A stretch of 64,000 nt of DNA from Muricauda sp. SCSIO 64092 (GTDB lineage Bacteria; Bacteroidota; Bacteroidia; Flavobacteriales; Flavobacteriaceae), in NCBI RefSeq assembly GCF_023016285.1, contig NZ_CP095413.1, forward strand, positions 2,542,001 through 2,606,000, read 5' to 3'. Under the pieces are notes generated by a model, which saw only the letters and a list, made by a program, of their open reading frames with translations, ran no database searches and had not been told where the DNA came from. Made by a program: the position numbers and the translations under genes. Positions 78-23,583 of this stretch are shown here, one piece after another; the stretch's first letter is position 1; every line of letters begins with the position of its first letter.

Positions 78-120
78 TGACTTGTATCATAACCCGATTT
101 TGACCTGTATTTTAATTTTG
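78..120 (+). promoter_or_regulatory. CRP/FNR-type site plus -7 box for the DUF6544 gene
   Basis: The dyad TGA-CTTGTA-TCA lies at 78-89, and a perfect Bacteroidota -7 box, TAATTTTG, at 113-120. The dyad centre (83.5) is 36.5 bp from the end of the box, the spacing found at nearly every other copy in this window. It suggests class II activation of the gene starting at 140. Before this site, bases 1-77 show no supportable gene; one frame stays open to 106 and could be the tail of an upstream gene. Confidence 0.7.
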
Positions 121-139
121 ACTTTTCAACAAAGTCATT

Positions 140-931
140 ATGGAGCTCCTGATCGTTGCGGTGATCTTCCTTTTAATACTATCCCTTTTTGCCGGGCACT
201 ACCGTTTTTACCATATAACAGAAAAGGATAGGGACACACTTTTTAATCTATCAGGCAATACGGAGCTACCCGTGACCAAGGAAGAACTAAATGTACTGCC
301 AAAAATTGTTAGGGCGTATTTGGTCAAAGCAAAGGTCGTGGGAAAGTGCAGGGATTGCCATCTTATCATAAAGCAAAGGGGGAGAATACGACAAAAAGAA
401 GGGGGTAACTGGCTGGATTTTACTGCAAAACAGGTCATGACCTCCGTACCCCCGGGTTTTGTATGGGCGGCTAGAAGCTTCCCCATTTTTGTTAAGGACA
501 AATGCATTAATGGCAAGGGAGAGGTCAGGGTAAGCTTTTTGGGACTAAGGGCCATGGGAGTACAACTATCCAGGGAAATCAATGAAAGTGCCCTGAACAG
601 GTGTCTTGCCGAGCTTCCACTCTACCCAGTAGGTTTTTTGAGTCCGGCAATTCGTTGGGAGGAATTGGATGGGAAATCGGTAAGGGCCAAAATTAGCGTC
701 GGGAGCACCCAAACGGAAGGAATATTCTTTTTTAATGACCATAGACTTATAGAGCGTTTTGAATCCATCCGGTACAAAGGGGACCTATTGGAACGGTTCA
801 CGGGCAAACTGGAAAATTACGAAACCCTGGAGGGTCTTTATGTGCCAACGAAAATGACTGCCATTTGGAATTTGGTCGAAGGTGATTTTGAATATTTCAA
901 CAGCGAAATTATAGACTATAGAATTGATTGA
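140..931 (+). CDS. DUF6544-type membrane-anchored protein
   Basis: A 263-residue protein of unknown function. Residues 1-20 form one hydrophobic segment (membrane anchor or uncleaved signal). The rest is soluble and resembles the DUF6544 family in length and in blocks such as the VPPGFVW region and the C-terminal segment with WNL and FEYF. A short CRDC motif lies near residue 70. The ATG at 140 sits about 15 bp after the expected transcription start of the promoter at 78-120. The stop is followed directly by the GTG of the J-domain remnant, so the two were probably co-transcribed. No catalytic residues can be named; the family assignment is from memory of its pattern. Confidence 0.75.
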   Translation: MELLIVAVIFLLILSLFAGHYRFYHITEKDRDTLFNLSGNTELPVTKEELNVLPKIVRAYLVKAKVVGKCRDCHLIIKQRGRIRQKEGGNWLDFTAKQVMTSVPPGFVWAARSFPIFVKDKCINGKGEVRVSFLGLRAMGVQLSREINESALNRCLAELPLYPVGFLSPAIRWEELDGKSVRAKISVGSTQTEGIFFFNDHRLIERFESIRYKGDLLERFTGKLENYETLEGLYVPTKMTAIWNLVEGDFEYFNSEIIDYRID

Positions 932-1305
932 GTGGATTTCATAGACTATTACAAGGTGTTGGGGGTACCCAAAAACGCCAGTGCGGATGCCATTAAAAAA
1001 AGCTATCGAAAACTGGCCCGGAAATATCACCCCGATTTGAATCCCAAGAATACCGAAGCAGAAAAGAAGTTTAAACAAATAAACGAGGACTACGAAGTAC
1101 TGTCCGATCCAAAGAAAACAAAGAAGCTGTTGTAGCCCTTGAAGCATTGCCAATATTGGAAAAAATGGTCCGGTTACATAAGGAATTGGATATCAACCCG
1201 GAAGGGCTGCATGCTATTCATCAACTGCTAAAGCAGATCCACACATTGGAACAAGAAGTGGAATTGCTCCAAAGGAAGCTGCGTAATTTGTATTTTTATC
1301 GGTAG
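932..1305 (+). pseudogene. Fused remnant of cbpA (J-domain) and cbpM
   Basis: From the GTG at 932, a good J-domain is readable: DYYKVLGV at the start, the HPD motif in KYHPDLNPK, and YEVLSDP at helix IV. The frame stops at 1133-1135 after 67 codons, so the G/F-rich linker and C-terminal peptide-binding domains of CbpA are missing. In the +2 shifted frame, from about 1105 to the stop at 1303-1305, the sequence reads as the C-terminal part of the MerR-like chaperone modulator CbpM (LEKMVRLHKELDINPEGL, then a leucine-rich coiled coil). CbpM normally follows CbpA. The simplest reading is one internal deletion joining the start of cbpA to the end of cbpM out of frame. A short J-domain protein could still be made, but no working CbpA or CbpM is encoded here. 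Confidence 0.75.
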
Positions 1306-1318
1306 TGGAAAGGTCAAT

Positions 1319-1573
1319 TTATCCTGAGGTGTTGGTTTTTTCGTCCACTGTTCTTTTTGAATCCATTGTTTTGGTGTACTTCACCCCCATTTTTCGCAAC
1401 TCCATTAGGGCACCGTCCATATCGCGATACGAGGCATATTCAAAACTTAAGGTTTTATTGTCCATATCGATTGTGGTCTTTTCCACATAGCCAATCCTAT
1501 TAAGACGTTTGACAATTTTCCCCGCCCGATGGGAATCTTCCAGATTTATTACTTTTAAACGAATACGAAGCAT
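1319..1573 (-). CDS. Small conserved-looking protein of unknown function
   Basis: An 84-residue soluble protein with alternating strand/helix character (beta-alpha-beta-beta-alpha-beta-like, e.g. LRIRLKVINL, then KTLSFEYASY) and no cysteines. It resembles small ferredoxin-like or HMA-like folds, but lacks the CxxC of metal-binding HMA domains, so no function is assigned. Support for a real gene comes from its own promoter: a regulon dyad at 1628-1639 and a -7-like box at 1597-1604 on the minus strand at the standard spacing. It is divergent from the USP gene at 1708, which has a separate dyad. Confidence 0.6.
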   Translation of the reverse strand: MLRIRLKVINLEDSHRAGKIVKRLNRIGYVEKTTIDMDNKTLSFEYASYRDMDGALMELRKMGVKYTKTMDSKRTVDEKTNTSG

Positions 1574-1596
1574 TGGCAGTACGTAAAAACGGATTC

Positions 1597-1639
1597 GGAA
1601 TTTAATCGTTTTTCTTATGCTGCAAAATGACCTGGGTCA
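1597..1639 (-). promoter_or_regulatory. CRP/FNR-type site plus -7 box, minus strand
   Basis: The dyad TGA-CCTGGG-TCA is at 1628-1639. On the minus strand, the 8-mer TAAATTCC (6 of 8 to TAnnTTTG) occupies 1597-1604, its far edge 36.5 bp from the dyad centre. It would drive the 84-residue gene starting at 1573. Confidence 0.5.
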
Positions 1640-1656
1640 ACCATTCATGGATTAAC

Positions 1657-1699
1657 TGATATAGGTCATTTCCTCGATTTACCGGTACACCTAGCTTAG
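1657..1699 (+). promoter_or_regulatory. CRP/FNR-type site plus -7 box for the USP at 1708
   Basis: The dyad TGA-TATAGG-TCA is at 1657-1668, and TAGCTTAG (7 of 8) at 1692-1699, with 36.5 bp from dyad centre to box edge. The centre lies 29 bp from the neighbouring minus-strand dyad, so each divergent gene has its own site. Confidence 0.65.
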
Positions 1700-1707
1700 T
1701 CTCAAAA

Positions 1708-3861: not shown

Positions 3862-3904
3862 TGACGCGCGTCATTTACCATTGCATTTGTGGAAGGTAAC
3901 TTTA
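3862..3904 (+). promoter_or_regulatory. CRP/FNR-type site plus -7 box for the USP at 3926
   Basis: The dyad TGA-CGCGCG-TCA is at 3862-3873 (a fully symmetric 12-mer), and TAACTTTA (7 of 8) at 3897-3904, with 36.5 bp spacing. The 197-bp gap holding it contains no other supportable feature. Confidence 0.7.
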
Positions 3905-3925: not shown

Positions 3926-4819
3926 ATGAAAACGATTCTGTACGCTACCGATTGCGACCCCAAAAAGGCGACTGCTTTGAGATATGCTTATAGAATTAGC
4001 AAGATCTTAAAGGCAGAGTTACATGTGGTGCATGTTTACGATTTAATGCCCTTCACTACAGCTGCGGTGAGGTCCAGGGGTATCTTGGAAAGGAACTATT
4101 TCAAAGATCGGCACATCAGTTTATTCAACTATTGCAGGGAGCAGTTAAAATTTGAACTTGGCTCCCACAAGCCCTATTTTCATGTGGTAAGGAATAGTTC
4201 GGTGACCAGGGGAATTGCAGAAGTTGTACGGAAAATCAATGCCGATTTGGTCTTGGTGGGTGTCAAAAGCCCAAATACCCTTAGGGGCGTGTTTACCGGC
4301 AATATTGGAAATGAGCTGATGGGGATTTTGGAATGCCCATTGTTGATCCTTCCGGAAGATTTTGATTACCACGGACTTTCCACCCTACTTTATGCAACTG
4401 ATTTTGAAGAAACGGATTTTTATGCCATAGAAAGTTTGGTAGCGTTTGCCGAACCTTATGGTGCCCTGATCAAGATTATCCATGTCCCAAGGGCAAAGGA
4501 ATTCAATTTTGAAAGTAAGGCGAGATGGTTTAAGCAGACCCTTGCCCAGCGGATAGCCTATCCGGAAATTGTGTTTTCGGCCGAACGGGCCGAGGATGTG
4601 GAATCCGGAATACTTGATCATGTATCCAAGGATATGCCCGAGATGCTGGTTATGATGGAGCGGGAACACTCCTCCTTTTTGGATAGGTTTTTTCACAGGG
4701 ATATGGTAAAGACCATGGAAGGGGAGATTTCGATACCACTGTTGGTTTTCAACAAAAAGGGCATTGAGGTAAAACTTACCGAGGAACCCACCGATAGCTT
4801 GCGCATGCAATGGGTTTAA
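3926..4819 (+). CDS. Universal stress protein, degenerate nucleotide motif
   Basis: A 297-residue protein with two UspA-like domains. It differs from the other USPs here: the G-2x-G-9x-G(S/T) signature of the first domain is altered (GVKSPNTLRGVFTGN, with Ser for the second Gly and Asn for Ser/Thr). ATP binding is therefore doubtful, and a role as partner of another USP is possible. The C-terminal domain has the HSSFLDRFF block typical of the paralogues. A short polar tail follows the last strand (about residues 282-297), absent from the other copies. It is transcribed alone from the promoter at 3862-3904. Confidence 0.88.
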   Translation: MKTILYATDCDPKKATALRYAYRISKILKAELHVVHVYDLMPFTTAAVRSRGILERNYFKDRHISLFNYCREQLKFELGSHKPYFHVVRNSSVTRGIAEVVRKINADLVLVGVKSPNTLRGVFTGNIGNELMGILECPLLILPEDFDYHGLSTLLYATDFEETDFYAIESLVAFAEPYGALIKIIHVPRAKEFNFESKARWFKQTLAQRIAYPEIVFSAERAEDVESGILDHVSKDMPEMLVMMEREHSSFLDRFFHRDMVKTMEGEISIPLLVFNKKGIEVKLTEEPTDSLRMQWV

Positions 4820-5090: not shown

Positions 5091-6500
5091 TTATAACATT
5101 GTGGTAGGGGCCACATAGTTGGAGATATCAAATTTTCCACTCGTTTTTAGTGCATTAAAACCACCTTTGACATCAACCAGGTTTTCATAGCCCATGGAAC
5201 GCAGAATGGAGATGAATACCATGGAACGATACCCACTTCTGCAATGGACATAATAGATTTTGTTCTTGTCTATTTCGGATAGGTTGTTCTTGAAATAATC
5301 AAGGGGTAGATTAATGGCATGCAGGACATGTTCCGTATTGTATTCGCTTTTTCGTCTAACGTCCAATAGGTCTACATGGTTTTCCTCCAACCTTTCCGGA
5401 CCAATGGATTTTACGGTGTGCAGCTGCTTTCCTGCTTGTTCCCAAGCCCACATGCCCCCTTTTAGGTAACCAAGGGCATTGTCGAATCCTATTCTCGCCA
5501 ATCGGATGGCTACTTCTTCTTCCTTGCCTTCCTCAGCAATGATCAGTATGGGGGTTTTTACATCAACAATGGTAGTGCCCACCCAGTTGGCAAAACTCCC
5601 ATCCAATCCAATATTGAATGAACCCGGAATATGGCCCCTTGCAAACTTTTGGGCATCCCTGGTATCCAATAGTAGGGCCGATGTTTCTTCCCAGGCTGTT
5701 TCAAATGCTTCAATACCTAATGGGGTAGTTCCCTTTTCAATGACATGGTCAATGGCCTGATATCCTTTTATGTTCAATAGAACGTTCTGGGGGAAATAGC
5801 CTGGAGGTGGCGTTAATCCTGTTAAAATACTGTCGATAAACTGCTCCTTGGTCAATTTGGGATCAAGGGCATAGTTTGTCTCTTTTTGATGTCCCAAAGT
5901 ATCTGTTGTTTCATTGCTCATCATTTTGCCACAGGCACTACCGGCACCGTGTCCGGGATAAACGATGACATCGTTTGGCAAGGGCATGATTTTGTTCCTA
6001 AGGGATTCAAATAGCAACCCGGCCAATTTTTCCTGGGTCAGCTCTGCAATGACCTTTTGTGCCAAATCTGGACGGCCTACATCGCCAATGAACAAGGTGT
6101 CTCCTGAAAACAATGAAGTTTCCCTGCCATTTTCGTCAATCAAGAGATAGCAACTGCTCTCCATGGTATGCCCTGGGGTGTGGATTAGACGGATTACGAC
6201 ATTTCCCAACCTAAACTCTTGCCCGTCCGTTGCTGAAATGAAATCGAATCCAGTTTTCATTTCAGTTGGTCCATAGACAATTTTTGCTCCTGTTTTTTGA
6301 GCGAGATCGATATGTCCCGAGACAAAATCCGCATGAAAATGGGTCTCAAATACATATTTGATCTGGGCATTGCGCTCTTTGGCCATTTTTATGTAGGGGT
6401 CCACTTCCCGCAAAGGGTCTATGATCGCCGCTTCACCATTGCTTTCTATATAATAGGCCCCTTGGGCCAGACAACCGGTATACATTTGCTCTACTTTCAT
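5091..6500 (-). CDS. CstB-like persulfide dioxygenase with two rhodanese domains
   Basis: A 469-residue cytoplasmic enzyme. An ETHE1-type metallo-beta-lactamase domain (about 1-245) has the ligand motifs THFHAD, HTPGHT, SGDTLFIGD and YPGHG. A first rhodanese domain (about 260-355) has lost its catalytic loop cysteine. A second rhodanese domain (about 365-460) keeps it in the loop HCRSGYRS. This is the layout of CstB-type persulfide dioxygenase/sulfurtransferases, which use Fe(II) and O2 to oxidise persulfides to sulfite or thiosulfate. Start choice: MKVEQMYTGCLAQ at 6500 matches the family N-terminus. The promoter is predicted at 6561-6603. Its place in the island suggests sulfide/persulfide detoxification as part of the same response. 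Confidence 0.9.
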   Translation of the reverse strand: MKVEQMYTGCLAQGAYYIESNGEAAIIDPLREVDPYIKMAKERNAQIKYVFETHFHADFVSGHIDLAQKTGAKIVYGPTEMKTGFDFISATDGQEFRLGNVVIRLIHTPGHTMESSCYLLIDENGRETSLFSGDTLFIGDVGRPDLAQKVIAELTQEKLAGLLFESLRNKIMPLPNDVIVYPGHGAGSACGKMMSNETTDTLGHQKETNYALDPKLTKEQFIDSILTGLTPPPGYFPQNVLLNIKGYQAIDHVIEKGTTPLGIEAFETAWEETSALLLDTRDAQKFARGHIPGSFNIGLDGSFANWVGTTIVDVKTPILIIAEEGKEEEVAIRLARIGFDNALGYLKGGMWAWEQAGKQLHTVKSIGPERLEENHVDLLDVRRKSEYNTEHVLHAINLPLDYFKNNLSEIDKNKIYYVHCRSGYRSMVFISILRSMGYENLVDVKGGFNALKTSGKFDISNYVAPTTML

Positions 6501-6560: not shown

Positions 6561-6603
6561 CAAACCTCCAATAATTAAATTGGAAATTTGCTGATTAATG
6601 TCA
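6561..6603 (-). promoter_or_regulatory. CRP/FNR-type site plus -7 box for the persulfide dioxygenase
   Basis: The dyad TGA-TTAATG-TCA is at 6592-6603. The minus-strand 8-mer GAGGTTTG (7 of 8 to TAnnTTTG) is at 6561-6568, with exactly 36.5 bp spacing. Confidence 0.6.
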
Positions 6604-6657: not shown

Positions 6658-6700
6658 TGACCCAGATCATTTTCTTTGTGGTATTCAATGTTTACATTGG
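6658..6700 (+). promoter_or_regulatory. Orphan CRP/FNR-type site plus -7 box
   Basis: The dyad TGA-CCCAGA-TCA is at 6658-6669, and TACATTGG (7 of 8) at 6693-6700 on the plus strand, at the standard 36.5 bp spacing. The minus strand has no box at the mirrored position. No recognised gene follows on the plus strand, which makes this promoter point at an unannotated transcript. Confidence 0.55.
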
Positions 6701-6704: not shown

Positions 6705-6967
6705 AACAATTTTACCCACCCCAAGGGTAAAATGAAAACCGGAATTGTTGGCAATGAAGTACGGTTGTATTGTTGGCATTGTCAAGAATCCAAAAAACCT
6801 TGGGCAAAATTGTTAGGTCAAGGCTCGTGATGAAGATGGTACCAGTAGGCCGAAACTAGGCTTGAATGGTATTGGACTACAGAACATGATAGCGTACGAT
6901 TGGTTTGAAAGATGCTATCTTTTTCATGATGGGAACAGGAGGCTCCAGCCTCCTGTTCCTGTTTTTT
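6705..6967 (+). ncRNA. Candidate small transcript, non-coding or 32-codon ORF
   Basis: Inferred transcription unit of about 260 nt between the orphan promoter (6658-6700) and the strong terminator at 6932-6967, both on the plus strand. It holds no known RNA family that I recognise. It contains one short ORF, 6732-6830 (32 codons, starting MKTGIVGNE and holding a CWHC motif), with AAGGG five bases before its ATG, so the product might be a micropeptide. The surrounding 590 bp (6501-7090) hold no other supportable gene; a 75-codon antisense frame was rejected. Confidence 0.35.
6932..6967 (+). terminator. Strong intrinsic terminator
   Basis: Perfect 13-bp arms GGAACAGGAGGCT (6932-6944) and AGCCTCCTGTTCC (6947-6959) flank a two-base centre, followed by TGTTTTTTG. 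The T-run lies only on the plus-strand side, so it terminates rightward transcription, although no annotated plus-strand gene precedes it. Confidence 0.75.
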
Positions 6968-7090
6968 GTGGCAGACGTTGGTTCATGATACCAAAAACGA
7001 ATAAAGGTTTGCCCCACCGCATTTTGGAAAAAGGGAAGTGGGTTCCCGCCCCAAAAGCAAGGTTCTATTTTTTAAATGGTGGAGTGCGTT

Positions 7091-8433: not shown

Positions 8434-8456
8434 TGACTTCCAAATTTCAGATCGTA

Positions 8457-8530
8457 CAAATATTGCCATCAAGGGCCGCTTACAAAATGACCTGTATCAT
8501 GGGGCAGTATGTATGGGCAATCTATTTTAG
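8457..8530. promoter_or_regulatory. Bidirectional promoter sharing one CRP/FNR-type site
   Basis: A single dyad, TGA-CCTGTA-TCA (8488-8499), has -7 boxes on both sides at the same 36.5 bp distance: TATTTTAG (7 of 8) at 8523-8530 on plus for the USP at 8571, and AATATTTG (7 of 8) at 8457-8464 on minus for DUF2267 at 8433. Confidence 0.7.
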
Positions 8531-8570
8531 TGATTCCAAAAAGAGGACAACGCTTTTTTGGGTCAGCACC

Positions 8571-9410
8571 ATGAAAACAATACTTGTACCCATCGACTTT
8601 TCGGAACATTCCCAAAATGCTTTGCAGGTAGCTTCGTTTTTGGCAAAACAACACCATGCAAAAATTATCCTCTTCCATATGATCGGAATATCGGAATCCG
8701 TGTTTGCCAAATCGGAACTGGAGGAAGAAGGGGAAGTAAAGTATTACTTGCAACTGGCCAAAAAGAAATTGAAGTCTTTTTTGGACAAATCGTATTTGCG
8801 GGATCTTAAGATAGAAACCATTATCCAAAACCTTAAGGATTTTAGTGAGGTATCAACGGTTGCCCAAGAGAAGCAAGCCGATTTGGTAGTAATGGGTTCC
8901 CATGGGGCCAGTACATTTCATGCATTTTTTGTGGGTTCAAATACGGAGAAGGTAGTGCGTACTTCCCATATCCCGGTTTTGGTCATAAAGTCAAAACATT
9001 CCAGTTTCCACATCAGAAAGATTTTGTTTGCAACGGATTTAAGTCCAGAAAGTGCTTTTGCCTATGGAAAAGTAAAGGCCTTGGCCAAAACGTTTCATGC
9101 GGAGTTGCCCATAGTTCATGTGAATACCATTGGCGCCAACTATAGAAGTAATTCCAAAATTCGGGAAGACATCGTTTCTTTCCGTGCACTATTGAAGGAA
9201 AACGTGGATGTTGAAATACATGATGACAGTACAGTGGAGGATGGAATATTCAACCATGCCATGAACATAAACGCAGATATTGTAGCATTATCCACCAGGG
9301 GGAGAAAGGGCTTGGCCCATTTCTTTCTGGGAAGCATAGGGGAAAACGTGGCAAATACGGTAAGACTCCCCGTGCTTACCATTAGGGCCCAATTAACCCC
9401 TAAAAAGTAA
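8571..9410 (+). CDS. Universal stress protein, both domains nucleotide-binding type
   Basis: A 279-residue tandem USP. The start is taken at the ATG at 8571 (MKTILVPIDFSEHSQNAL); the frame is open upstream, but that would run through the promoter. The first domain has GSHGASTFHAFFVGS, a complete G-2x-G-9x-GS motif. Uniquely among the USPs in this window, the second domain also keeps a nearly complete version (STRGRKGLAHFFLGS, with Ser for the first Gly). It is thus closer to the classical family than its neighbours and may bind two nucleotides. The 3' end overlaps the convergent TerB-like gene by 18 bp. Confidence 0.92.
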   Translation: MKTILVPIDFSEHSQNALQVASFLAKQHHAKIILFHMIGISESVFAKSELEEEGEVKYYLQLAKKKLKSFLDKSYLRDLKIETIIQNLKDFSEVSTVAQEKQADLVVMGSHGASTFHAFFVGSNTEKVVRTSHIPVLVIKSKHSSFHIRKILFATDLSPESAFAYGKVKALAKTFHAELPIVHVNTIGANYRSNSKIREDIVSFRALLKENVDVEIHDDSTVEDGIFNHAMNINADIVALSTRGRKGLAHFFLGSIGENVANTVRLPVLTIRAQLTPKK

Positions 9411-9800
9411 TTGCAGCCTTCCCAACAATACCAACTCTGCTTTATTGCTCCCGAAAAAAGCGCCGGCTATTGCCCTTGCAGTGGACATGGTCAGGTTTTT
9501 GATCTCTTCGCTGAAAAGGGCTTTATTGGACCTATAAAAAGCTTCAAATTCCTCGTAGCATGTTTCGCTGTCTTTTTCATATTCCAATAGCCAATCAAAA
9601 ACCGTTTCTATCTGGAAAGCGGCATCCGTTCCAAACTCATCCACGTTATCGTCCAGCGGCAACCAATGTTCCCTTACCAATTCCGTTAAGCATTCCATTT
9701 CTTTGGCATGTACGCTATAATCGGCCATGGCTATGGCATAGAATAGCTTTCCCAGGTTTTGATAGAATTCCTTGCTTTTTTTACTCTTGGCATCCAACAT
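9393..9800 (-). CDS. TerB-like helical protein
   Basis: A 135-residue soluble all-alpha protein resembling the TerB/tellurite-resistance fold. The FYAIAMADYSVHAKEMECLTEL segment has the typical acidic residue and E..-L pattern after the first helix. Family members sense or bind metals and appear in stress clusters; a specific role here is not shown. It is convergent with, and overlaps by 18 bp, the USP at 8571. Its ATG is at 9800, with a predicted regulon promoter at 9823-9865. Confidence 0.7.
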   Translation of the reverse strand: MLDAKSKKSKEFYQNLGKLFYAIAMADYSVHAKEMECLTELVREHWLPLDDNVDEFGTDAAFQIETVFDWLLEYEKDSETCYEEFEAFYRSNKALFSEEIKNLTMSTARAIAGAFFGSNKAELVLLGRLQLLFRG

Positions 9801-9822: not shown

Positions 9823-9865
9823 TTAAAATAACAAAAGATTCACTTTCCCTCTATGATGTAAATCA
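9823..9865 (-). promoter_or_regulatory. CRP/FNR-type site between TerB-like and kinase genes
   Basis: The dyad TGA-TGTAAA-TCA is at 9854-9865. The minus-strand box TATTTTAA (6 of 8) at 9823-9830, at 36.5 bp, serves the TerB-like gene. On the plus strand, a -7-like box TAAGTTTA (9818-9825) would start kinase transcription upstream of the dyad. The same site could therefore repress the kinase-regulator operon. Confidence 0.5.
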
Positions 9866-9887: not shown

Positions 9888-11417
9888 ATGAAGCTATTTG
9901 AGGAAAATGATATTTTTAGAATATTGTCGGAAGCGGTATCCGAAGGGATTCTCATTGTAAATGACAAACAACAGATTGTGGCCAGTAATTCCGTGGCCAA
10001 TCAAATGTTCGGCTACTCGGGGGAGGAATTGAATGGGCAATTTCTTAAGGTTTTGTTACCAAGCAGTGCCCAGTCCATCCATGGAAAATATTTTGACGGT
10101 TTTTTGGAAAAGGGAAAACGAAGAAATATGGGTCTGGGGCTGGACTTGCAAGGGGTAAGGCAAGATGGGAGCGAATTCCCCCTGGAAATAGGACTCAACC
10201 CTTTTAAGCTATTACAAAAAAAATATGTAATGGCCCTGGTGGTCGATATCACCGAACGGAAAAAGGCGGAACAGGCCATAGGGCATTGGTTCCGTATTTT
10301 CAATGAGTCGCTCAATGAAATCTATGTATTTGACACCAAAACCCTGAAATTCGTAAATATCAACCACGGAGCCCAACTGAACCTTGGTTATACCCTAGAA
10401 GAACTTCATCAAATGTCCGTTTTGGATATTAAACCGGAATTGACCAGGGAAAGCCTAAAAAGACTTATTTGGCCCTTAACAAAAAACAAAAAGGACAAAA
10501 TCGATTTTGAAACCATCCACAGAAGAAAGGACGGTACTACCTACCCTGTTGAGGTACATTTACAATTGTCATATATTGAGAAAAAAGAGGTGTGCGTGGC
10601 CATAGTACTGGATATCACGGATAGGAAGAACTATACCGAAAAGCTGGAGCACACCGTTGAGGAACGCACCCTTCAACTCAGGAAAGCACTCAAAAAAGAA
10701 AAGGAGTTGAACGAACTAAAGACAAAGTTCCTCTCTTTGGTGTCCCATGAGTTCAAAACTCCCTTGACCAGTATCCTGACCTCAATAACGCTCTTGTCCA
10801 AGTATACGGATTCCAATCAGCAGGAGAAAAGGGATAAACACATCAAGACCATAAAATCCAAGGTAAAATATTTGGACAATATCCTTTCGGATTTTCTTTC
10901 CATAGAACGATTGGAAACAGGAAAAGTAAGGTACAATACCACCACATTCCCTTTGAGCAAACTCGTCAATGAGGTCATTTATACCTCCAATTCCTTGCTT
11001 AAGGAAGGCCAACGTATCCTATATCCCAAAGGAATAGATGGCATAATGGTCACTTTTGATGAAAAGATCATGTCCCTGGCCCTGTCCAATCTCTTGCTTA
11101 ATGCCATAAAATATTCTTCCGAAGAGACCAATGTGGAACTGGTGGTGGAAGAAACCGAGGATTGCCTTCTCATACATATCAGTGATCAGGGGGTAGGGAT
11201 ACCAAAGGAAGACCACCCCTTTATTTTTGATAGATATTACAGGGCCAGCAATGTTTTGACAACCCAAGGGACCGGAATTGGTTTAAACATTGCCAGACAG
11301 CATATTGTGAATTTAGGCGGAGAGATTTTATTTAAGAGCGAGCTTGGTCATGGCTCTACATTTACCTTAAAGATTCCCGTTAAATCAAAGAGCGATGAAA
11401 AAGATCCTGTTGGTTGA
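9888..11417 (+). CDS. Soluble PAS-PAS histidine kinase
   Basis: A 509-residue cytoplasmic sensor kinase with no membrane segment. Two PAS domains (about 10-125 and 135-255) precede a coiled coil. A HisKA domain follows with the phospho-acceptor in VSHEFKTPLTS (about His-287), then an HATPase with N-box NLLLNAIKYSS, G1 DQGVGIP, F-box FIFDRYYR and G2 GTGIGLN. No heme or flavin ligand can be assigned to the PAS domains by eye, so the signal (redox, oxygen, small molecule) is open. The gene overlaps the downstream regulator by 23 bp, the classic arrangement of a cognate pair. It probably phosphorylates the receiver-CRP fusion. Confidence 0.92.
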   Translation: MKLFEENDIFRILSEAVSEGILIVNDKQQIVASNSVANQMFGYSGEELNGQFLKVLLPSSAQSIHGKYFDGFLEKGKRRNMGLGLDLQGVRQDGSEFPLEIGLNPFKLLQKKYVMALVVDITERKKAEQAIGHWFRIFNESLNEIYVFDTKTLKFVNINHGAQLNLGYTLEELHQMSVLDIKPELTRESLKRLIWPLTKNKKDKIDFETIHRRKDGTTYPVEVHLQLSYIEKKEVCVAIVLDITDRKNYTEKLEHTVEERTLQLRKALKKEKELNELKTKFLSLVSHEFKTPLTSILTSITLLSKYTDSNQQEKRDKHIKTIKSKVKYLDNILSDFLSIERLETGKVRYNTTTFPLSKLVNEVIYTSNSLLKEGQRILYPKGIDGIMVTFDEKIMSLALSNLLLNAIKYSSEETNVELVVEETEDCLLIHISDQGVGIPKEDHPFIFDRYYRASNVLTTQGTGIGLNIARQHIVNLGGEILFKSELGHGSTFTLKIPVKSKSDEKDPVG

Positions 11418-12444
11418 AGATGATATTTCCCTGAGGGAGAACATGGAAGAACTTTTGGACCTCTCCGGTTTTTCGGTTTGTGCGGTGGCCAATGGCCGGG
11501 CGGCCATAGCAATGGCCAAAAAGGAAATGCCAGATTTGATATTATGTGATATTATGATGCCGGAAATGGACGGCTATGCCGTTTTGGAACACCTTTCCGC
11601 TTCTCCAAAAACCTGTAAAATACCTTTTGTGTTCGTCTCGGCCAAAACCGAAAGGCATGACGTACGGAAAGGAATGGACCTGGGTGCGGACGACTATCTT
11701 ACAAAGCCCTTTGAGGAGGAGGAATTACTGAACACCATCCATAGTAGACTAAACAAGGCAGAAGCACTTAACAATGCGTTTTCGGATTGGCGCACAACTA
11801 ATGTCAAGAACTATGAAATAAGGACTTTGCATCAGTTGAAAAATTTTTTTGACGACCATGGGGAACTACTTTCCTTTAAAAAGGAAGAATCCATTTATAA
11901 AGAAGGGGACCACTCCAATAAAATATACCTCATACTTAAAGGTTCCGTAAAATGTTACAAACTGGACGAACAGGGCAAGGAATTGATAACATCGGTCTAT
12001 GCCACCGATGAGTTCCTGGGGTTCACCTCATTAATGGACTATGTTCCTTATCAAGAGTTTGCCGTGGCGCTTGAAGATGTTGAACTCGCGGGGATTTCAA
12101 AGCCCCAACTCAAAACCATTTTGGAGGAAAACCAACATGTTTCCCTGGAGGTTTTGGAGGTGATGGTGGAGAGTATCGCCGAAATTAAAAAACAACTTTT
12201 ACAAATGGCCTATAGCTCAGTACGAAAGCGCACGGCATATACGCTCTTACAGTTTGCCCGTGCCATGGGCAACAAAATGGGAAAACCCCTGAAAATTGCA
12301 AGAAGCGACCTGGCAGGGGCTGCGGGCGTGGCAACGGAAAGTCTTATAAGGACACTTTCGGATTTTAAGCAAGAGGGACTGATTGCCGTTGAAAATAGGA
12401 ACATTATTATTTTGGATCCGGAAACACTTCAACATATTGGCTGA
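11395..12444 (+). CDS. Receiver-CRP/FNR fusion response regulator
   Basis: A 349-residue protein. An N-terminal receiver domain (1-122) has the acidic pocket EDD, the phospho-acceptor Asp-52 in LCDIMMPEMDG and the conserved Lys in YLTKPF. It is followed by a full cNMP-binding-type beta-roll (about 145-255, with the KGSVKCYKL block), a long dimerisation helix and a Crp-type winged HTH (about 290-345). The recognition helix ATESLIRTLSDF keeps the Glu and Arg spaced four residues apart, as in FNR (E..-SR) and CRP (RE...R). This fits half-sites containing TGA. No FNR-type cysteine cluster is present. It is the best candidate for binding the 16 TGA-N6-TCA dyads around it. Confidence 0.93.
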   Translation: MKKILLVEDDISLRENMEELLDLSGFSVCAVANGRAAIAMAKKEMPDLILCDIMMPEMDGYAVLEHLSASPKTCKIPFVFVSAKTERHDVRKGMDLGADDYLTKPFEEEELLNTIHSRLNKAEALNNAFSDWRTTNVKNYEIRTLHQLKNFFDDHGELLSFKKEESIYKEGDHSNKIYLILKGSVKCYKLDEQGKELITSVYATDEFLGFTSLMDYVPYQEFAVALEDVELAGISKPQLKTILEENQHVSLEVLEVMVESIAEIKKQLLQMAYSSVRKRTAYTLLQFARAMGNKMGKPLKIARSDLAGAAGVATESLIRTLSDFKQEGLIAVENRNIIILDPETLQHIG

Positions 12445-12447: not shown

Positions 12448-12490
12448 TGATATTTATCATTACAATTTGCATGCCGGTGCTATAATTTAG
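12448..12490 (+). promoter_or_regulatory. CRP/FNR-type site plus -7 box for the USP at 12508
   Basis: The dyad TGA-TATTTA-TCA is at 12448-12459, starting four bases after the regulator's stop codon. TAATTTAG (7 of 8) is at 12483-12490, with 36.5 bp spacing. Confidence 0.7.
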
Positions 12491-12507
12491 CATGGTTATT
12501 TTTTGTG

Positions 12508-13355: not shown

Positions 13356-13398
13356 TGACCCATATCATTTCCCAAGGAAATCCTTCCGGTTACTTTTG
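13356..13398 (+). promoter_or_regulatory. CRP/FNR-type site plus perfect -7 box, USP operon
   Basis: The dyad TGA-CCCATA-TCA is at 13356-13367, and TACTTTTG (8 of 8) at 13391-13398, with 36.5 bp spacing. It drives the three-gene run 13418-15978. Confidence 0.75.
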
Positions 13399-16419: not shown

Positions 16420-16462
16420 GCAAGGTAAGTTCGCAAACATGTTTAAGAAATGATCTGGGTCA
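16420..16462 (-). promoter_or_regulatory. CRP/FNR-type site plus -7-like box, minus strand
   Basis: The dyad TGA-TCTGGG-TCA is at 16451-16462. The minus-strand 8-mer TACCTTGC (6 of 8) is at 16420-16427, with 36.5 bp spacing, upstream of the ATG at 16403. Confidence 0.5.
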
Positions 16463-16576: not shown

Positions 16577-16619
16577 TGACCAAAATCATGGCACATTGTT
16601 CCGATCAAAACTATTTTAC
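16577..16619 (+). promoter_or_regulatory. CRP/FNR-type site plus -7 box for the USP at 16645
   Basis: The dyad TGA-CCAAAA-TCA is at 16577-16588, and TATTTTAC (6 of 8) at 16612-16619, with 36.5 bp spacing. As at 1.6 kb, the divergent gene has a separate dyad (16451-16462). Confidence 0.55.
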
Positions 16620-17529: not shown

Positions 17530-17572
17530 TGATTCAGATCATGGTAAACAACGGGACCTCGGACTAGTTTTA
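17530..17572 (+). promoter_or_regulatory. CRP/FNR-type site plus -7 box for the USP at 17591
   Basis: The dyad TGA-TTCAGA-TCA is at 17530-17541, and TAGTTTTA (7 of 8) at 17565-17572, with 36.5 bp spacing. Confidence 0.7.
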
Positions 17573-17590: not shown

Positions 17591-18445
17591 ATGAACAAGA
17601 GAATTTTACTTCCCACGGACTATTCCAAGAATGCATTGAACGCAATTCGCTATGCGCAAAGACTTTACAAGGATGTTAGTTGTGATTTTTATTTGCTCAA
17701 CACCTATCAGGTATCCGGATATGCCTTGGACAGTATGATGGTCCCCGAACCAGGGGAACAACTTTATGAGACCTTTAAAAGAAAGTCCGAAGAGGGAATG
17801 GACCGCTTATTGGGGATGCTCCATCCAGAGTTGGACAACCCCAAACACCATTTTGAAACCAGGTGCGAATTCAATAGCCTTATTGAAGCCGTTAGACATA
17901 TGGTGGCCAAAAAGGATATTGATACCATTATCATGGGGACCAAAGGATTAACGGGGTCCAAAGCCAGGATTTTTGGGACCCATACGGTTAAGGTTATGGA
18001 GTCCATAAAGGCATGCCCCGTTATTGCCATTCCGGAAAGTCCGGTTTTCCAGCCGCCAAGGGAAATCCTGTTTCCAACGGATTATAGGACCAATTTCAAA
18101 AAAAAGGAGATGCAGTACCTCATAGAGATTGCAAAACTGCACGACTCCAGAATCAATGTACTCCATATTGATCAGGATAAAGATGGAAAGCTCAATAAAG
18201 AAGAGCAGACCAACAGACTGCTTTTACAGGATATTTTGGATGGCACGGATTATGAGATGCATTTTTTGCCTGCCGTTAAATTGGTAAAGGGGATCAATGT
18301 ATTCATGGAAAGCAGAAATTGTGATATGCTGGCCTTTTTAAACCGAAAACACCTCTTCTTTGGAAGCATACTTTCCAACCCCTTGGTAAAGGAAATAGGA
18401 TATGAACCCAAAGTACCGATTCTTGAATTGAACGATAACCCATAA
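17591..18445 (+). CDS. Universal stress protein
   Basis: A 284-residue tandem USP. The first domain opens MNKRILLPTDYSKNALNAI, with motif GTKGLTGSKARIFGT. The second domain opens REILFPTDYRTNFKK and ends HLFFGSILSNPLVKEIGYEPKVPIL. It lies 9 bp before the eRF1-like gene and shares its promoter at 17530-17572. It is the ninth USP of the window. Confidence 0.92.
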   Translation: MNKRILLPTDYSKNALNAIRYAQRLYKDVSCDFYLLNTYQVSGYALDSMMVPEPGEQLYETFKRKSEEGMDRLLGMLHPELDNPKHHFETRCEFNSLIEAVRHMVAKKDIDTIIMGTKGLTGSKARIFGTHTVKVMESIKACPVIAIPESPVFQPPREILFPTDYRTNFKKKEMQYLIEIAKLHDSRINVLHIDQDKDGKLNKEEQTNRLLLQDILDGTDYEMHFLPAVKLVKGINVFMESRNCDMLAFLNRKHLFFGSILSNPLVKEIGYEPKVPILELNDNP

Positions 18446-18948: not shown

Positions 18949-18991
18949 TGATTTAAATCATTTTGCAAAATTGTACGGTTCGCTACCTTCA
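18949..18991 (+). promoter_or_regulatory. CRP/FNR-type site plus -7-like box
   Basis: The dyad TGA-TTTAAA-TCA is at 18949-18960 (fully symmetric 12-mer), and TACCTTCA (6 of 8) at 18984-18991, with 36.5 bp spacing. The box lies inside the longest version of the next frame, arguing for the later start at 19014. Confidence 0.55.
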
Positions 18992-19013: not shown

Positions 19014-19427
19014 TTGGAGGAAAAAGGTCAAGAAAGGGGAACACAGGAACTGTATCTGGAACTACAGCGATGGAGTTCCCATATCCATTTTATAGAGGAC
19101 GAGATGCACTTTATCAACAGGCTGCTGAATTCCTATGTCTTTGAACCTACAACCCCTAATCTTTTTGAACGGTTGGCGCTTTTTAAGCAAAACTTTGAAC
19201 GGTCAAAAAAACAAAAGCAGAAGATAAAAAAACGAATACTGGAACATCAGGGAAAAATTGCCGGAATTCTGGAATGTTCCCCTAAAACCTGTGATTTGGC
19301 CTATTCCAGGGCACATAAGAACCTGAAACAGAAAATAGATCGGTATTTTGAGGAGTACCTGCTGCTCAAATCCGAGATATACGGTTATGCAGGCTCCGTA
19401 CTGAAAAGGAGAAAACCCGTAAAGTGA
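19014..19427 (+). CDS. Unknown coiled-coil protein, paralogue of the gene at 19996
   Basis: A 137-residue helical, lysine- and glutamate-rich protein of unknown function. The frame is open from a TTG at 18963, but the predicted promoter lies after that. The TTG at 19014 gives an N-terminus (LEEKGQERGTQELYLELQRW) that aligns with the paralogue two genes on (KAKLKKYMEWLSAEEL..-W). Both share the block RW-S-H-(I/L)-F--(E/D)(E/D)-F-N-L--S(Y/H)V and a C-terminal coiled coil ending in basic residues. The stop codon TGA (19425-19427) is also the left half of the next operator. No ATG start fits. Confidence 0.6.
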   Translation: MEEKGQERGTQELYLELQRWSSHIHFIEDEMHFINRLLNSYVFEPTTPNLFERLALFKQNFERSKKQKQKIKKRILEHQGKIAGILECSPKTCDLAYSRAHKNLKQKIDRYFEEYLLLKSEIYGYAGSVLKRRKPVK

Positions 19428-19466
19428 CACAGATCATTTCACTCGTACGGTTTCTGTATAAATTGA
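19425..19466 (+). promoter_or_regulatory. CRP/FNR-type site plus -7 box for hsp20
   Basis: The dyad TGA-CACAGA-TCA is at 19425-19436; its first three bases are the stop codon of the preceding gene. The box TAAATTGA (19459-19466) is 35.5 bp from the dyad centre, one base nearer than at the other sites. It drives the run starting with hsp20 at 19501. Confidence 0.5.
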
Positions 19467-19500: not shown

Positions 19501-19941
19501 ATGTCACTTATTAAATTTAAAGGAAGCCGATTTCCATGGAACGAAAGTGTTTTTGATTTTTTCAATCAAGATACGTTCATCAATGATGATTTTTTCAACC
19601 TTGAAAAGTCCATGCCTTCAATGAACGTAAAAGAACATGAAAATGATTTTGAGATAGAACTGGCGGCCCCGGGATTTGAAAAAAAGGATTTTGAAATCAC
19701 CATGAAAGATGATGTTTTGGAAATTTCCGCCCATAAAAAAGTAGCGGAAACCAAAAAGGAAGAGGATTACACCCGAAGGGAATTCAGCTATAATTCCTTC
19801 AAAAGAAGTATGCAGTTGCCCAGCTCGGTAGATCAATCCAAAGAAGTAAGGGCCACTTATAAAAACGGTATTTTAAGATTGGACCTTTTAAAAATGGAAG
19901 AAGCCAAAGAGAAACCCAAAAGAATTATTGAGGTGGTTTAG
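19501..19941 (+). CDS. Hsp20 small heat-shock protein
   Basis: A 146-residue alpha-crystallin-domain chaperone that holds unfolding proteins without ATP. A short N-terminal arm with FPWNESVFDFF is followed by the alpha-crystallin domain (about 38-135): VKEHENDFEIELAAPGFEKKDFEI, then EFSYNSFKRSMQLPS, then ATYKNGILRLDL (the A-x-x-x-NG-L signature). The C-terminal tail is short and basic. It is the first gene of a probable operon (19501-22108). Linking Hsp20 to USPs under one operator type is a classic general-stress arrangement. Confidence 0.95.
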   Translation: MSLIKFKGSRFPWNESVFDFFNQDTFINDDFFNLEKSMPSMNVKEHENDFEIELAAPGFEKKDFEITMKDDVLEISAHKKVAETKKEEDYTRREFSYNSFKRSMQLPSSVDQSKEVRATYKNGILRLDLLKMEEAKEKPKRIIEVV

Positions 19942-19980: not shown

Positions 19981-19995
19981 TTGAGCAAATCGAAG

Positions 19996-20433: not shown

Positions 20434-20463
20434 CAAGACATATTAACCCTTAAACAACAACCT

Positions 20464-21120: not shown

Positions 21121-22108
21121 TGCAAAGGATTTTGAAGTCGAAAAACTTAAAAACGCCAATCAGGATAAGCATAGGATGACGTTCGTATCGGAGGCGTTGG
21201 ACAGTACAACGGTCACTTTGGCTGCCGGTCATGAAGCCATTTCCATTTTTTCCGGTGATGATGCCTCTTCGGTAGTCATGGAGATGTTGAAGGAACTTGG
21301 GGTCAAGTACCTCACCTTACGCTCTACCGGGTACAACAATGTAAGCACAATAGCCGCAAAACGATTGGGGATCAAAGTGGCGAATGCACCGGATTATTCC
21401 CCCCATGCCATTGCGGAACATACCATTTGTTTGGTGTTGGCCTTAAACAGAAGGTTGCTACTGGCCAACAAACAAGTAAAAGCGTACAATTTTTTGCTCA
21501 ATGATCTAGTGGGTTCCAACTTGAACGGTAAAACGGTTGGCATTGTGGGAACAGGAAGGATAGGGTCACTTTTGGTGAAGCTGTTCCACGCCTTCGGTTG
21601 TGAGGTCATTGCAAATGATTTGGTGGTCAACCATTATTTGGAAAACCAGTTCAATGTGAAATACATGGATTTGCATACGCTATGTAGAAAGGCGGATATC
21701 ATCAGTATCCATGTACCCCTTACCCAAGACACCCACTATATGTTCAACGAATCACTTTTCAAACTTATGAAGAAGGGGATTGTTTTGGTCAATACGGCCA
21801 GAGGGGCTGTTGTGAGGACAAAGGATGTATTGAACGCCTTGAGGGATGGTTCCCTTGCGGGGTATGCCACGGATGTTTACGAAACCGAAAAAGGAATCTT
21901 TTTTCGGGACAACCCCTCCGGCATAAAAGATGCGGAACTCAAGGAATTGATAGCATTGCCCAATGTATTGCTAACGCCCCATCAGGCATTTGTGACCGAG
22001 GAAGCGTTACGGAATATCGCGGATACCACAGTATATAATCTAAACTGCTGGGAAGAAAATAGGCCTTGCAAGAACGAATTGGGCTATAAAACCCAAATAC
22101 TGTTATAG
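21101..22108 (+). CDS. D-lactate dehydrogenase-type 2-hydroxyacid dehydrogenase
   Basis: A 335-residue NAD-dependent D-2-hydroxyacid dehydrogenase that probably reduces pyruvate to D-lactate (length and motifs match the LdhA branch). It has the Rossmann motif GIVGTGRIGSLL, followed by a C-terminal catalytic triad: Arg in LVNTARGAVV, Glu in DVYETEKG, and His in LTPHQAF. The ATG at 21101 lies inside the lipoprotein gene (20-bp overlap). Its 3' end overlaps cls by 6 bp. Placing a fermentative NADH sink at the end of the hsp20 operon hints that the response covers oxygen or respiratory limitation. Confidence 0.88.
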   Translation: MKVLVYSAKDFEVEKLKNANQDKHRMTFVSEALDSTTVTLAAGHEAISIFSGDDASSVVMEMLKELGVKYLTLRSTGYNNVSTIAAKRLGIKVANAPDYSPHAIAEHTICLVLALNRRLLLANKQVKAYNFLLNDLVGSNLNGKTVGIVGTGRIGSLLVKLFHAFGCEVIANDLVVNHYLENQFNVKYMDLHTLCRKADIISIHVPLTQDTHYMFNESLFKLMKKGIVLVNTARGAVVRTKDVLNALRDGSLAGYATDVYETEKGIFFRDNPSGIKDAELKELIALPNVLLTPHQAFVTEEALRNIADTTVYNLNCWEENRPCKNELGYKTQILL

Positions 22109-23515
22109 GAGCGGACTCAAAAGTTTTGCCAATCCTTCCCGTATTTTTGCCCACCAACTGCGTTGTTGGAACGCAAGACGGTCCACTTCCTGGGATTTTG
22201 AACAGTTGTTTAGAAAATCATTCCTGAGATCGGCACTTATTTTTTGGTCATAGATGATTACATTGACCTCATAGTTTTGTTGTAGACTTCGATCATCAAG
22301 GTTGGCCGTGCCAATACTGGCAATTTTAGTATCACTGATGACCATTTTGCTGTGCAGGAACCCATCTGGATATAGGTATATTTTTATGCCTGCCTTTAAA
22401 TAGGCTTCAAAATATGCCCTAACACACCAGTCCACTACTTTACTGTCCGTAGTTGCAGATAGCAATAGTTTTACATCCACCCCACTAAGGGAGGCGGTTT
22501 TAAGGCTTTGCAAAATGGCCTGGCTTGGAATGATGTAAGGGTTGGCGATATACAGGTATTCCTTTGCCTGGTTGATAATGGTAAAATAGACCTGTTCCAT
22601 TATGGCAAAATCATCATCTGGCCCGCTGGGAACGAGCTGCAAATGGGTTTTTGGGTTGGGGGCAATCGTTTTTGAAGTGGTCATGGGAAGATTGGAGCTC
22701 CCTTCGGATTTTCCACTCGCAAGATACCAATCCGACAAAAAGACCCTGTTTAGAAAAGCCACGGCTTCCCCTTTCAATTGCAGGTGGATATCATGCCACC
22801 TTCCCAAATCCGGATCCCCCTTAAGATATTTGTCCGAGATATTAATGCCGCCCGTGAACCCCACCTGGTTATCTGCCACAATAATTTTTCTATGGTTTCT
22901 ATAGTTCAATGCCGCCAGGAACCTTCCCAATCTAAATGGAAGAAACTGTTCTACTTCAACCCCAATACTTTTGAGCTTTTTAATGTACCCTTTGCTCAAG
23001 GAGTAACTGCCTATGCCATCGTAGATCAGTCTAATGGAGACGTTCTGCCTTCTCTTTCTTTCAAATAGATCCAGGAATTTCTGGGCCAATAGGCCATCTT
23101 CAAAAATATAGTATTGGATATGGATGTGGTTTTGGGCGCGCTCCAACGCTTTAAAAATGGACTCAAAGGTTTCCTTACCATCCTTGAGCAATACCAAAGA
23201 GTTCAATGAAGTAATGGGAATTTTAGTGGTCCTTTCTATCAATTTTTGGACCTTGTGACCGTCTAGGTCTGATGCAATGGGGGCAGCTGTAATCTTTGGA
23301 AGATGTCCCAAAAAATCCCTGCTGAGGACAAAGAGCTTGTTTTTTCGCCTGTTCCTTCCGAACACAAGATAGAGTAGCATTCCCCCAAGGGGGATGGTAA
23401 AAATGGCCAAAAGCCAGGCCAGGGTTTTACTCGGCCTAATCCCATTGATAAGCAAGCTTATGACCAGCGCAAAAGCAATAACCACATAAGCAATGATGAA
23501 CAGAAATAGCAACAT
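22103..23515 (-). CDS. cls: Cardiolipin synthase
   Basis: A 470-residue inner-membrane phospholipase-D-family enzyme that joins two phosphatidylglycerols into cardiolipin. Two N-terminal membrane helices (1-45) are followed by a first HKD motif, HRKIIVADNQVGFTGG (about residue 210), and a second, HSKMVISDTKIASIGTANLDDRS (about residue 395); both catalytic His-Lys-Asp sets are intact. The length is normal for bacterial ClsA-type enzymes. It is expressed leftward from a regulon promoter at 23541-23583, so membrane remodelling is part of the predicted response. Confidence 0.93.
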   Translation of the reverse strand: MLLFLFIIAYVVIAFALVISLLINGIRPSKTLAWLLAIFTIPLGGMLLYLVFGRNRRKNKLFVLSRDFLGHLPKITAAPIASDLDGHKVQKLIERTTKIPITSLNSLVLLKDGKETFESIFKALERAQNHIHIQYYIFEDGLLAQKFLDLFERKRRQNVSIRLIYDGIGSYSLSKGYIKKLKSIGVEVEQFLPFRLGRFLAALNYRNHRKIIVADNQVGFTGGINISDKYLKGDPDLGRWHDIHLQLKGEAVAFLNRVFLSDWYLASGKSEGSSNLPMTTSKTIAPNPKTHLQLVPSGPDDDFAIMEQVYFTIINQAKEYLYIANPYIIPSQAILQSLKTASLSGVDVKLLLSATTDSKVVDWCVRAYFEAYLKAGIKIYLYPDGFLHSKMVISDTKIASIGTANLDDRSLQQNYEVNVIIYDQKISADLRNDFLNNCSKSQEVDRLAFQQRSWWAKIREGLAKLLSPLL

Positions 23516-23540
23516 TTTATGAAATGGGAAGGCTTGGAAA

Positions 23541-23583
23541 TAAAGGTATGGGATTTATGGATAGTGGCTACTGAGATAGATCA
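23541..23583 (-). promoter_or_regulatory. CRP/FNR-type site plus -7 box for cls
   Basis: The dyad TGA-GATAGA-TCA is at 23572-23583. The minus-strand TACCTTTA (7 of 8) is at 23541-23548, with 36.5 bp spacing. It is the last regulon site I find in the window. Confidence 0.65.

Follow-up and report, generated by a model that had tools for sequence, protein, structure and literature searches.

We analysed a stretch of 64,000 nucleotides from the marine flavobacterium Muricauda sp. SCSIO 64092, here called the window, in whose coordinates all positions are given. The part from 1 to 23600 carries a cluster of genes, many of them for universal stress proteins (USPs), and a set of dyads of the form TGA-N6-TCA. 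Within the cluster lie the genes of a sensor histidine kinase (9888..11417, +) and of a response regulator with a CRP-type output, here named REC-CRP (11395..12444, +); these are the proposed sensor and the proposed activator. The kinase has the composition PAS-PAS-HisKA-HATPase_c (Pfam PAS_9, PAS, HisKA and HATPase_c), and REC-CRP combines the Pfam domains Response_reg, cNMP_binding and HTH_Crp_2.

A preliminary description of this DNA had listed 16 intergenic dyads, each followed at a constant distance by a -7-like box, and had assigned them to a CRP/FNR-type regulon. TGA-N6-TCA was read at all 16 first bases. A purine preceded TCA in 16 of 16 dyads and a pyrimidine followed TGA in 15, dyad 23572 having G, both as described. 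In total the window contained 35 TGAN6TCA and 19 TGAYN4RTCA matches, the latter class including 15 of the 16 listed sites. The box was scored by its matches to the six fixed bases of TAnnTTTG, taking the better of the two orientations; at offset 35 from the first base of the dyad, 36.5 bp separate the dyad centre from the end of the box. At this offset a box of at least 4/6 was present for 15 of the 16 listed dyads and a box of at least 5/6 for 10. The fixed spacing was therefore seen for all dyads but 19425, where the box matched at 2/6 only, and in five of the 15 it involved a 4/6 match. The agreement at 6-8 positions reported earlier includes the two n positions; what holds is 4-6 of the six fixed bases.

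Complete 6/6 boxes were found for two dyads: 78..89 (+; box 113-120, TAATTTTG), upstream of a DUF6544 gene (140-931), and 13356..13367 (+; box 13391-13398, TACTTTTG), upstream of a run of three USP genes (13418-14263, 14275-15114 and 15127-15978). Boxes of 5/6 accompanied four further dyads in front of USP genes, namely 1657..1668 (+; box 1692-1699; USP 1708-2556), 3862..3873 (+; box 3897-3904, TAACTTTA; USP 3926-4819), 17530..17541 (+; box 17565-17572, TAGTTTTA; USP 17591-18445) and 12448..12459 (+; box 12483-12490; USP 12505-13350), which starts 4 bp beyond the stop codon of REC-CRP. The same score was reached by 6592..6603 (-; box 6561-6568(-)), upstream of a gene for a CstB-like metallo-beta-lactamase-rhodanese protein (5091-6500(-)), and by 6658..6669 (+; box 6693-6700), for which no convincing downstream gene was found, the ORF (open reading frame) there being 6886-7134. 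Dyad 8488..8499 had 5/6 boxes on either side (8523-8530(+) and 8457-8464(-)) and is flanked by a DUF2267 gene (7981-8472(-)) and a USP ORF (8427-9410(+)), both of which probably have their true starts further inside the ORFs. The last dyad of this group, 23572..23583 (-; TGAG...; box 23541-23548(-)), is a weak candidate upstream of a cls-like phospholipase D (PLD) gene (22103-23515(-)).

Boxes of 4/6 were found for five dyads. Dyad 1628..1639 (-; box 1597-1604(-)) is located upstream of the ORF 1319-1573(-), which gave a weak HMA-like match below the cut-off. Dyad 9854..9865 (-; box 9823-9830(-)) faces the gene of a putatively helical, TerB-like protein (9393..9800, -) and is divergent from the kinase gene. 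The remaining three are 16451..16462 (-; box 16420-16427(-)), upstream of an orphan ORF (16032-16403(-)), 16577..16588 (+; box 16612-16619), upstream of USP 16645-17496, and 18949..18960 (+; box 18984-18991), upstream of an ORF of unknown function (18963/19104-19427). Thus, the boxes of 1628, 6592, 9854, 16451 and 23572 are on the minus strand. Dyad 19425..19436 (+) precedes the Hsp20 gene (19501-19941) and overlaps the stop codon of the preceding ORF, its TGA being the stop codon of the ORF that ends at 19427. It is therefore not strictly intergenic, and the dyads 3862, 8488, 13356, 16451 and 16577 fall inside mechanically listed ORFs, which are doubtful themselves or have doubtful starts. 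The unlisted TGAN6TCA matches in 1-23600 (13016, 17337, 20268 and 20846) had at most 3/6 at offset 35 in either direction.

The density of the dyads had been called non-random, and this was borne out. A background sample of 300 kb, taken as fifteen 20-kb stretches distributed over the 5.69-Mb genome, contained 24 TGAYN4RTCA (0.8 per 10 kb), and 0 of these 24 had a box of at least 5/6 at offset 35. The region 1-23600 contained 16 (15 listed dyads and 20268), about eight times the background, and 23601-64000 contained three. When the 32 oriented sites of 1-23600 were scanned over all offsets, offset 35 had 10 boxes of at least 5/6 (mean over offsets 0.38) and 15 of at least 4/6 (mean 2.26). A search of the complete genome for TGAYN4RTCA followed at any gap of 8-38 (31 gaps) by a perfect TANNTTTG gave 29 pairs, 14 of them at gap 23 and 15 at the remaining 30 gaps together; a reversed-pattern control gave 8 matches in one genome pattern search and 1 in the other.

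The same gap dominated in related genomes. As relatives we took the best 80 loci from a scan of named genomes with the REC-CRP protein alignment; most are labelled as genera of the Flavobacteriaceae, Allomuricauda and Arenibacter among them, and in one (L087) the REC-CRP protein has 99% identity. In these loci the density of TGAYN4RTCA was 3.56 per 10 kb, while eight altered dyads reached 0.42-0.82. Of 1072 oriented dyads, 413 had a box of at least 5/6 at offset 35 (median at other offsets 12). Density and phase were both absent from the altered dyads. Offsets 12 and 57 formed minor peaks, with 38 and 33 boxes; that at offset 12 probably reflects a T-tract after the dyad. After removal of near-identical copies, and with A also accepted as the last box base, 477 distinct dyads remained. 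A box was present in at least one orientation for 376 of these and in both for 33, which are bidirectional like 8488 in the window. Offset 35 held 409 boxes, with a mean of 24.6 and a maximum of 54 (offset 12) elsewhere. The neighbouring offsets 34 and 36, with 23 and 19 boxes, were not enriched, so the 35.5-bp spacing described for dyad 19425 is not supported as a second allowed phase, and its box is better seen as decayed or located elsewhere.

With mechanical ORFs and copies retained, dyads in the 80 loci were concentrated in intergenic DNA (22.2 versus 0.59 per 10 kb in genes), where 416 of 459 had the box at offset 35 (9 of 77 in genes). The motif pooled from 356 distinct sites was AAM-TGAY-N4-RTCAT, followed by a T-tract and by TAnYTTTR at offset 35, with hardly any information in between. 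The distance from the box end to the start codon had a median of 23 nt (interquartile range 19-28, n=404), which is what a genuine promoter element with a short leader would give.

Conservation in front of orthologous genes was analysed with reciprocal best hits (RBHs) in 11 of the 80 loci; these loci are related to each other. For 13 window genes with a listed dyad, 57 of 63 RBHs had an upstream dyad, 53 of them with a box of at least 4/6. Adding the USP ORF 8427 with its uncertain start (6/9) and cls (0/2) gave 63 of 74, as opposed to 7 of 40 for six genes without a listed dyad (Fisher p = 1e-12); the kinase gene and 20464 (0/3) were excluded from both sums. The most constant target was the TerB-like gene with dyad and box in 11/11 loci, next to USP 12505 with the dyad in 11/11 (box of at least 4/6 in 8). 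Dyads were also kept for USP 16645 (9/11), the USP run at 13418 (7/9), USP 17591 (6/6), the ORF 18963/19104 (3/3), Hsp20 (3/3, box in 2), DUF2267 (2/2), the CstB-like gene (1/3) and, in 1/1 locus each, DUF6544, ORF 1319 and the USPs 1708 and 3926; the ORFs 6886-7134 and 16032-16403 had no RBH. Taken together, the phased dyads of the preliminary description are confirmed, and the observation is stronger than was claimed.

The regulated set needed correction. We counted targets in the 80 loci as genes with a dyad and a box of at least 5/6, assigned by their best BLAST match to 30 window proteins. Sites were found for the TerB-like gene (44/48), USPs (172/303), the WG-repeat (11/17), Hsp20 (11/16), unknown 18963-type (9/16) and 19981-type (12/30), DUF2267 (5/10) and 1319-type genes (3/4). 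Lower proportions were obtained for the kinase (5/80), the 20464-type (3/16), the CstB-like (2/8), REC-CRP (2/88), the 18455-type (2/18) and DUF6544 (1/3). No sites were found for the beta-lactamase-like (0/1), 2-hydroxyacid dehydrogenase (0/8), 16032-type (0/1), cls (0/4), RR2 (0/1) and HK2 (0/1) genes. The 2-hydroxyacid dehydrogenase was rejected as a member on this count, and so was cls, which also lacked an upstream TGAYN4RTCA in both RBH loci. The stress-type targets of the earlier set thus stand, while cls drops out and Hsp20 stays with a dyad (19425) that has no box at offset 35. Nine USPs had been included; two of these (14275 and 15127) lack a dyad of their own both in the window and in their RBH loci (0/5 and 0/8) and are therefore probably later genes of an operon.

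Of 901 genes without a match to any window protein, 111 had a site. In a Pfam tally covering the first 25 of 75 families these comprised S30AE ribosome hibernation factors (16), thioredoxins (11), E1-E2 ATPases (7), COX1/FixO (5), MlaE (5), DnaJ (5), PNPOx-like proteins (5) and M50 proteases (4). Single scans of relatives of the window gave PfkB and a cation ATPase as targets, and in some genera genes of the cbb3 oxidase and of metal P-type ATPases were found among the targets near REC-CRP.

REC-CRP belongs to the CRP/FNR superfamily, both PF00027 (2.9e-18) and PF13545 (3.7e-14) being above their cut-offs, and is a response regulator by its receiver domain (PF00072, 9.2e-31). The putative phosphorylation site D52, K104 and the residues E315 and R319 of the recognition helix were invariant in 21/21 rows of the alignment; the latter we take to be the Glu/Arg pair that acts in recognition. 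It is not a cAMP-CRP of the E. coli type (NF008732, 81.2 bits with a cut-off of 266) and not FNR proper, since its sole invariant cysteine is C51 in the receiver and the four-cysteine set of an iron-sulphur (FeS) cluster is missing. Second full-length REC-CRP matches with 38-45% identity were present in several genomes (G003:C11 at about 94000-122000 (L209), G001:C25, G005:C24, G008:C67 and G021:C16). These have dyads with boxes around them and represent paralogous modules of the same kind within one genome.

For the first PAS domain of the kinase (PAS1) the best matches of solved structure were FixL (2.1e-12) and DosP (2e-11). Of 16 structure matches 13 were FixL or DosP/yddU, yddU being another name of DosP, and the others were 10jx, 3mjq and 2pr5. 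The kinase is not a FixL equivalog (NF041777, 98.7 bits with a cut-off of 850). His65, which aligns with what we take to be the proximal heme ligand of FixL, was present in 30 of 33 rows, comprising the window and 32 loci, out of 75 with a kinase, in which the best kinase aligns from PAS1 onward. It was also found in 23/23 rows of the folded set, which omits 10 of the 32, mainly longer kinases, and it is located within the helix 59-75 of a predicted model of moderate quality (mean pLDDT 78.8). The distal Arg position is Leu in the window kinase and Arg in 17 of 33 rows. Heme-based oxygen sensing by PAS1 is an assignment that we would put slightly below an even chance, and we do not go higher because histidines of this kind are also found in PAS domains for which heme binding is not known.

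The genome had seven HTH_Crp_2 matches, four of them above the cut-off: REC-CRP, two adjacent FNR-like genes at 1.257-1.259 Mb and one gene with an internal stop. One of the FNR-like proteins had its four cysteines invariant in 20/20 rows. Its locus carried sites with the same TGAY-N4-RTCA core at the same offset as in the window, upstream of ORFs that resemble (by eye) hemN, a cbb3 oxidase subunit and USPs; a site with this core elsewhere in the genome precedes an ORF that resembles a hibernation factor. The motifs were compared on distinct sites (70 of 100 from FNR loci and 127 of 160 from REC-CRP loci). The FNR-locus motif was AAAnC-TGAY-AWWT-RTCA-T-n-TTTT. In the REC-locus motif the A and T tracts were absent, and the four inner bases tended to begin with C and to end with G, approaching TGACCTAGGTCA. 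No G or C among the inner bases was found in 64/70 FNR-locus sites versus 37/127 REC-locus sites. The base before TGA was A or C in 93% and 84%, respectively, and the mean G+C content of the loci was similar (41.2% vs 41.7%).

Leave-one-out classification separated the two motifs with an area under the curve (AUC) of 0.98, as compared to a mean of 0.47 and a maximum of 0.57 in 20 label shuffles. Training on the genus and testing on other genera gave an AUC of 0.95 (10 vs 48 sites), with 10/10 FNR-locus sites on the right side. One REC-type site (G000:C1:2476411-2476453, L010; score 16.1) is located 66 kb before the window start, so sites of this type are not confined to the cluster. The ORF that it precedes codes for 243 aa and is similar in its first residues to the ORF that follows the FNR-locus site L037:10477.

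The presence of a full-length REC-CRP match went along with USP arrays. In the genus of the window it was found in 8 of 11 genomes (seven with 72-100% identity; the match of 45% in G009 is perhaps a paralogue). These eight had 16-31 strict sites and 20-29 matches to USPs, whereas the genomes without it, three in all, had 5, 5 and 5 USP matches and 9, 7 and 10 sites; the FNR-like protein was present in all 11. Among 37 genomes of the family (16 with a full-length match at E <= 1e-75 and 21 without) the medians were 20.5 vs 9 sites (p = 1e-5) and 20.5 vs 5 USP matches (p = 8e-7), where kinship is ignored and some of the proteins counted as present are only 41-45% identical.

These results support a CRP/FNR-superfamily regulon with constant phasing and with conservation beyond this genome. 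However, the first reading of the dyads has to be changed in its regulator, extended by a second set of sites of the FNR type and limited to fewer members that are certain. Its regulator was rightly placed in the CRP/FNR type, but the best candidate is a response regulator with a CRP output and a PAS kinase rather than a free-standing CRP/FNR protein. We consider it likely that the dyads are operators of this two-component activator, because REC-CRP is encoded in the cluster, keeps the phosphorylation site and the Glu/Arg pair, and co-occurs with the USP array. The kinase would phosphorylate the receiver domain, and a REC-CRP dimer would bind TGAY-N4-RTCA, in this genus close to TGACCTAGGTCA. 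Class II-type geometry, as proposed earlier, is supported by the constant distance of 36.5 bp between the dyad centre and the end of the -7-like box, and would place the dyad near -41.5, overlapping the -35 region. From there REC-CRP would activate in the class II manner and touch RNA polymerase at the Bacteroidota -7 box TAnYTTTR. The outcome would be a survival response (USPs, TerB-like protein, Hsp20, DUF2267 and others), probably to low oxygen. Besides it, the genome has an FNR-like system of its own, which uses the same core and phase and a different motif.

Several observations weigh against this assignment. An upstream dyad of REC-CRP was found in 0/11 loci, and the kinase gene had a dyad in 11/11 but a box of at least 4/6 in its own direction in 3/11; there is therefore no sign of self-activation, and we dropped self-activation of the two-component genes as unsupported. 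REC-CRP and the USP genes are linked, so that their co-occurrence would also result if the block were lost as a whole; it therefore says a limited amount about binding. Outside the genus the motif split was blurred, with REC-like scores for 36/48 held-out sites and for 210/347 sites of the named loci (L087 excluded); it is thus not universal, and part of the sites in REC-CRP loci that are not REC-like may be FNR sites. Loci not labelled Flavobacteriaceae had a weak or mixed phase, with boxes of at least 5/6 in L161 for 0/3 dyads, in L165 for 0/2, in L166 for 2/8, in L163 for 2/7 and in L124 for 2/3. L165 is a REC-CRP relative in a contig labelled as a metagenome-assembled genome (MAG) of Deltaproteobacteria. 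Its two dyads have no box of at least 4/6 at offset 35, and its placement may be due to transfer or mis-binning.

The most direct competitor to REC-CRP would be the free-standing FNR-like proteins, the two paralogues at about 1.257-1.259 Mb, which could bind the window dyads while REC-CRP is incidental or acts elsewhere. The shared core and offset would suit this, as would the recognition-helix stretch of one FNR-like protein, which has the same TES..IR residues as REC-CRP, and the four cysteines, which fit an oxygen-sensing FeS protein. We nevertheless regard it as improbable, given the distinct FNR-locus motif with its A-rich and TTTT flanks and its lack of inner G/C, and the three genomes of the genus that keep the FNR-like gene yet have five USP matches each and 7-10 sites. 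A milder version, in which the two regulators share the dyads, preferring them to different degrees, and the cluster integrates oxygen (through FNR) and the kinase signal, is compatible and overlaps with our preferred explanation. It draws on the common core and phase, on the 137/347 sites of named REC-CRP loci that are not REC-like and on the cbb3 oxidase and metal P-type ATPase targets near REC-CRP; the clear split within the genus speaks against it, and we hold it to be rather unlikely, if clearly less so than FNR acting alone.

Position alone is compatible with either sign of regulation, so the dyads might also be repressor operators whose occupancy at -41.5 blocks RNA polymerase. Yet the spacer between dyad and box has no -33-type element but only the T-tract that directly follows the dyad. 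This would fit an activator taking the place of the -33 element, and repression appears very improbable to us. An artefact of chance or base composition could appeal to the five of 15 boxes that match at 4/6 only, a score common by chance in the 32 oriented sites. Against the other gaps, the altered dyads, the background sample and the conservation its probability is negligible, and we discarded it.

Apart from these systems, a second two-component pair is located beside the cluster (23990-26193), consisting of a PAS_3 protein with HATPase_c and no HisKA match, and of a lone receiver. At 45254-63231(-) a gene for an ABC ATPase is next to a tandem row of seven ORFs, each of about 790-820 aa; of these, the four that were scanned are MacB_PCD and FtsX permeases.

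Activator-dependent promoters of the Bacteroidota are little charted, and their promoter differs from the standard one. A dyad-to-box rule of this precision allows activator targets to be read from the DNA throughout the family. Should REC-CRP be the regulator, such REC-CRP fusions gain a regulon, many genes of unknown function, the TerB-like gene first, gain a family-wide context, and the origin of dormancy programmes can be studied in a harmless marine system. A limited and possibly too strict search of the open-access literature by title and abstract opening returned no paper on this regulon.

In E. coli, class II activation by FNR and CRP involves a site for a CRP-fold dimer that is centred near -41.5 and has the core TGA-N6-TCA. 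The arrangement proposed here is alike in both respects, but its box is TAnYTTTR, the sites show no TTGA or TGTGA, and the proposed activator is a response regulator. In the FixL-FixJ-FixK cascade a PAS kinase, a receiver protein and a CRP-type DNA-binding protein act in succession. The window has a PAS kinase resembling FixL, a receiver and a CRP-type DNA-binding part; in contrast to the cascade, the latter two form one polypeptide here. The boxes of HcpR (wyTTGACnnnnGTCAArw) and DNR (CTTGATnnnnATCAAG), as given in PMC1274295, have the inner core TGAY-N4-RTCA in common with our sites. The window sites lack the TT..AA outer pair of these boxes, and their targets are USPs and others, not hcp or denitrification genes.

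In gene content the targets resemble the dormancy response of mycobacteria under DosR. DosR has an output of the LuxR type, not the CRP type; several 'CHP' entries of its list are USPs, and an M50-CBS protease and a hibernation factor also belong to it. As in DosS/DosT-DosR, the kinase-regulator pair of the window is encoded within its own target set, which includes a small heat-shock protein. According to PMC4082495, the DosR list includes hspX, ctpF and pfkB, and the heme of DosS/DosT sits in a GAF domain, unlike the window kinase, where it would at most be in a PAS domain. By gene content only, ctpF and pfkB compare with the cation ATPase and PfkB targets in relatives of the window. REC-CRP is no homologue of DosR, its output domain being HTH_Crp_2, and we propose that the likeness of the two regulons is convergence and not kinship. 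Put together, this would amount to a Dos-like dormancy regulon of Flavobacteriaceae assembled from unrelated components: a heme-PAS kinase together with a REC-CRP that is FixJ- and FixK-like in a single piece, working with a rigid class II architecture on Bacteroidota promoters and kept apart from FNR by inner and flanking operator bases. Its targets would be USP arrays, Hsp20, ribosome hibernation factor, PfkB, cation ATPase, M50-CBS protease, thioredoxin and the TerB-like signature protein. As a joint reading this is tentative, and we think it somewhat more apt to fail in one of its parts than to hold throughout; it would make the flavobacterial system a convergent counterpart of the mycobacterial DosR response.

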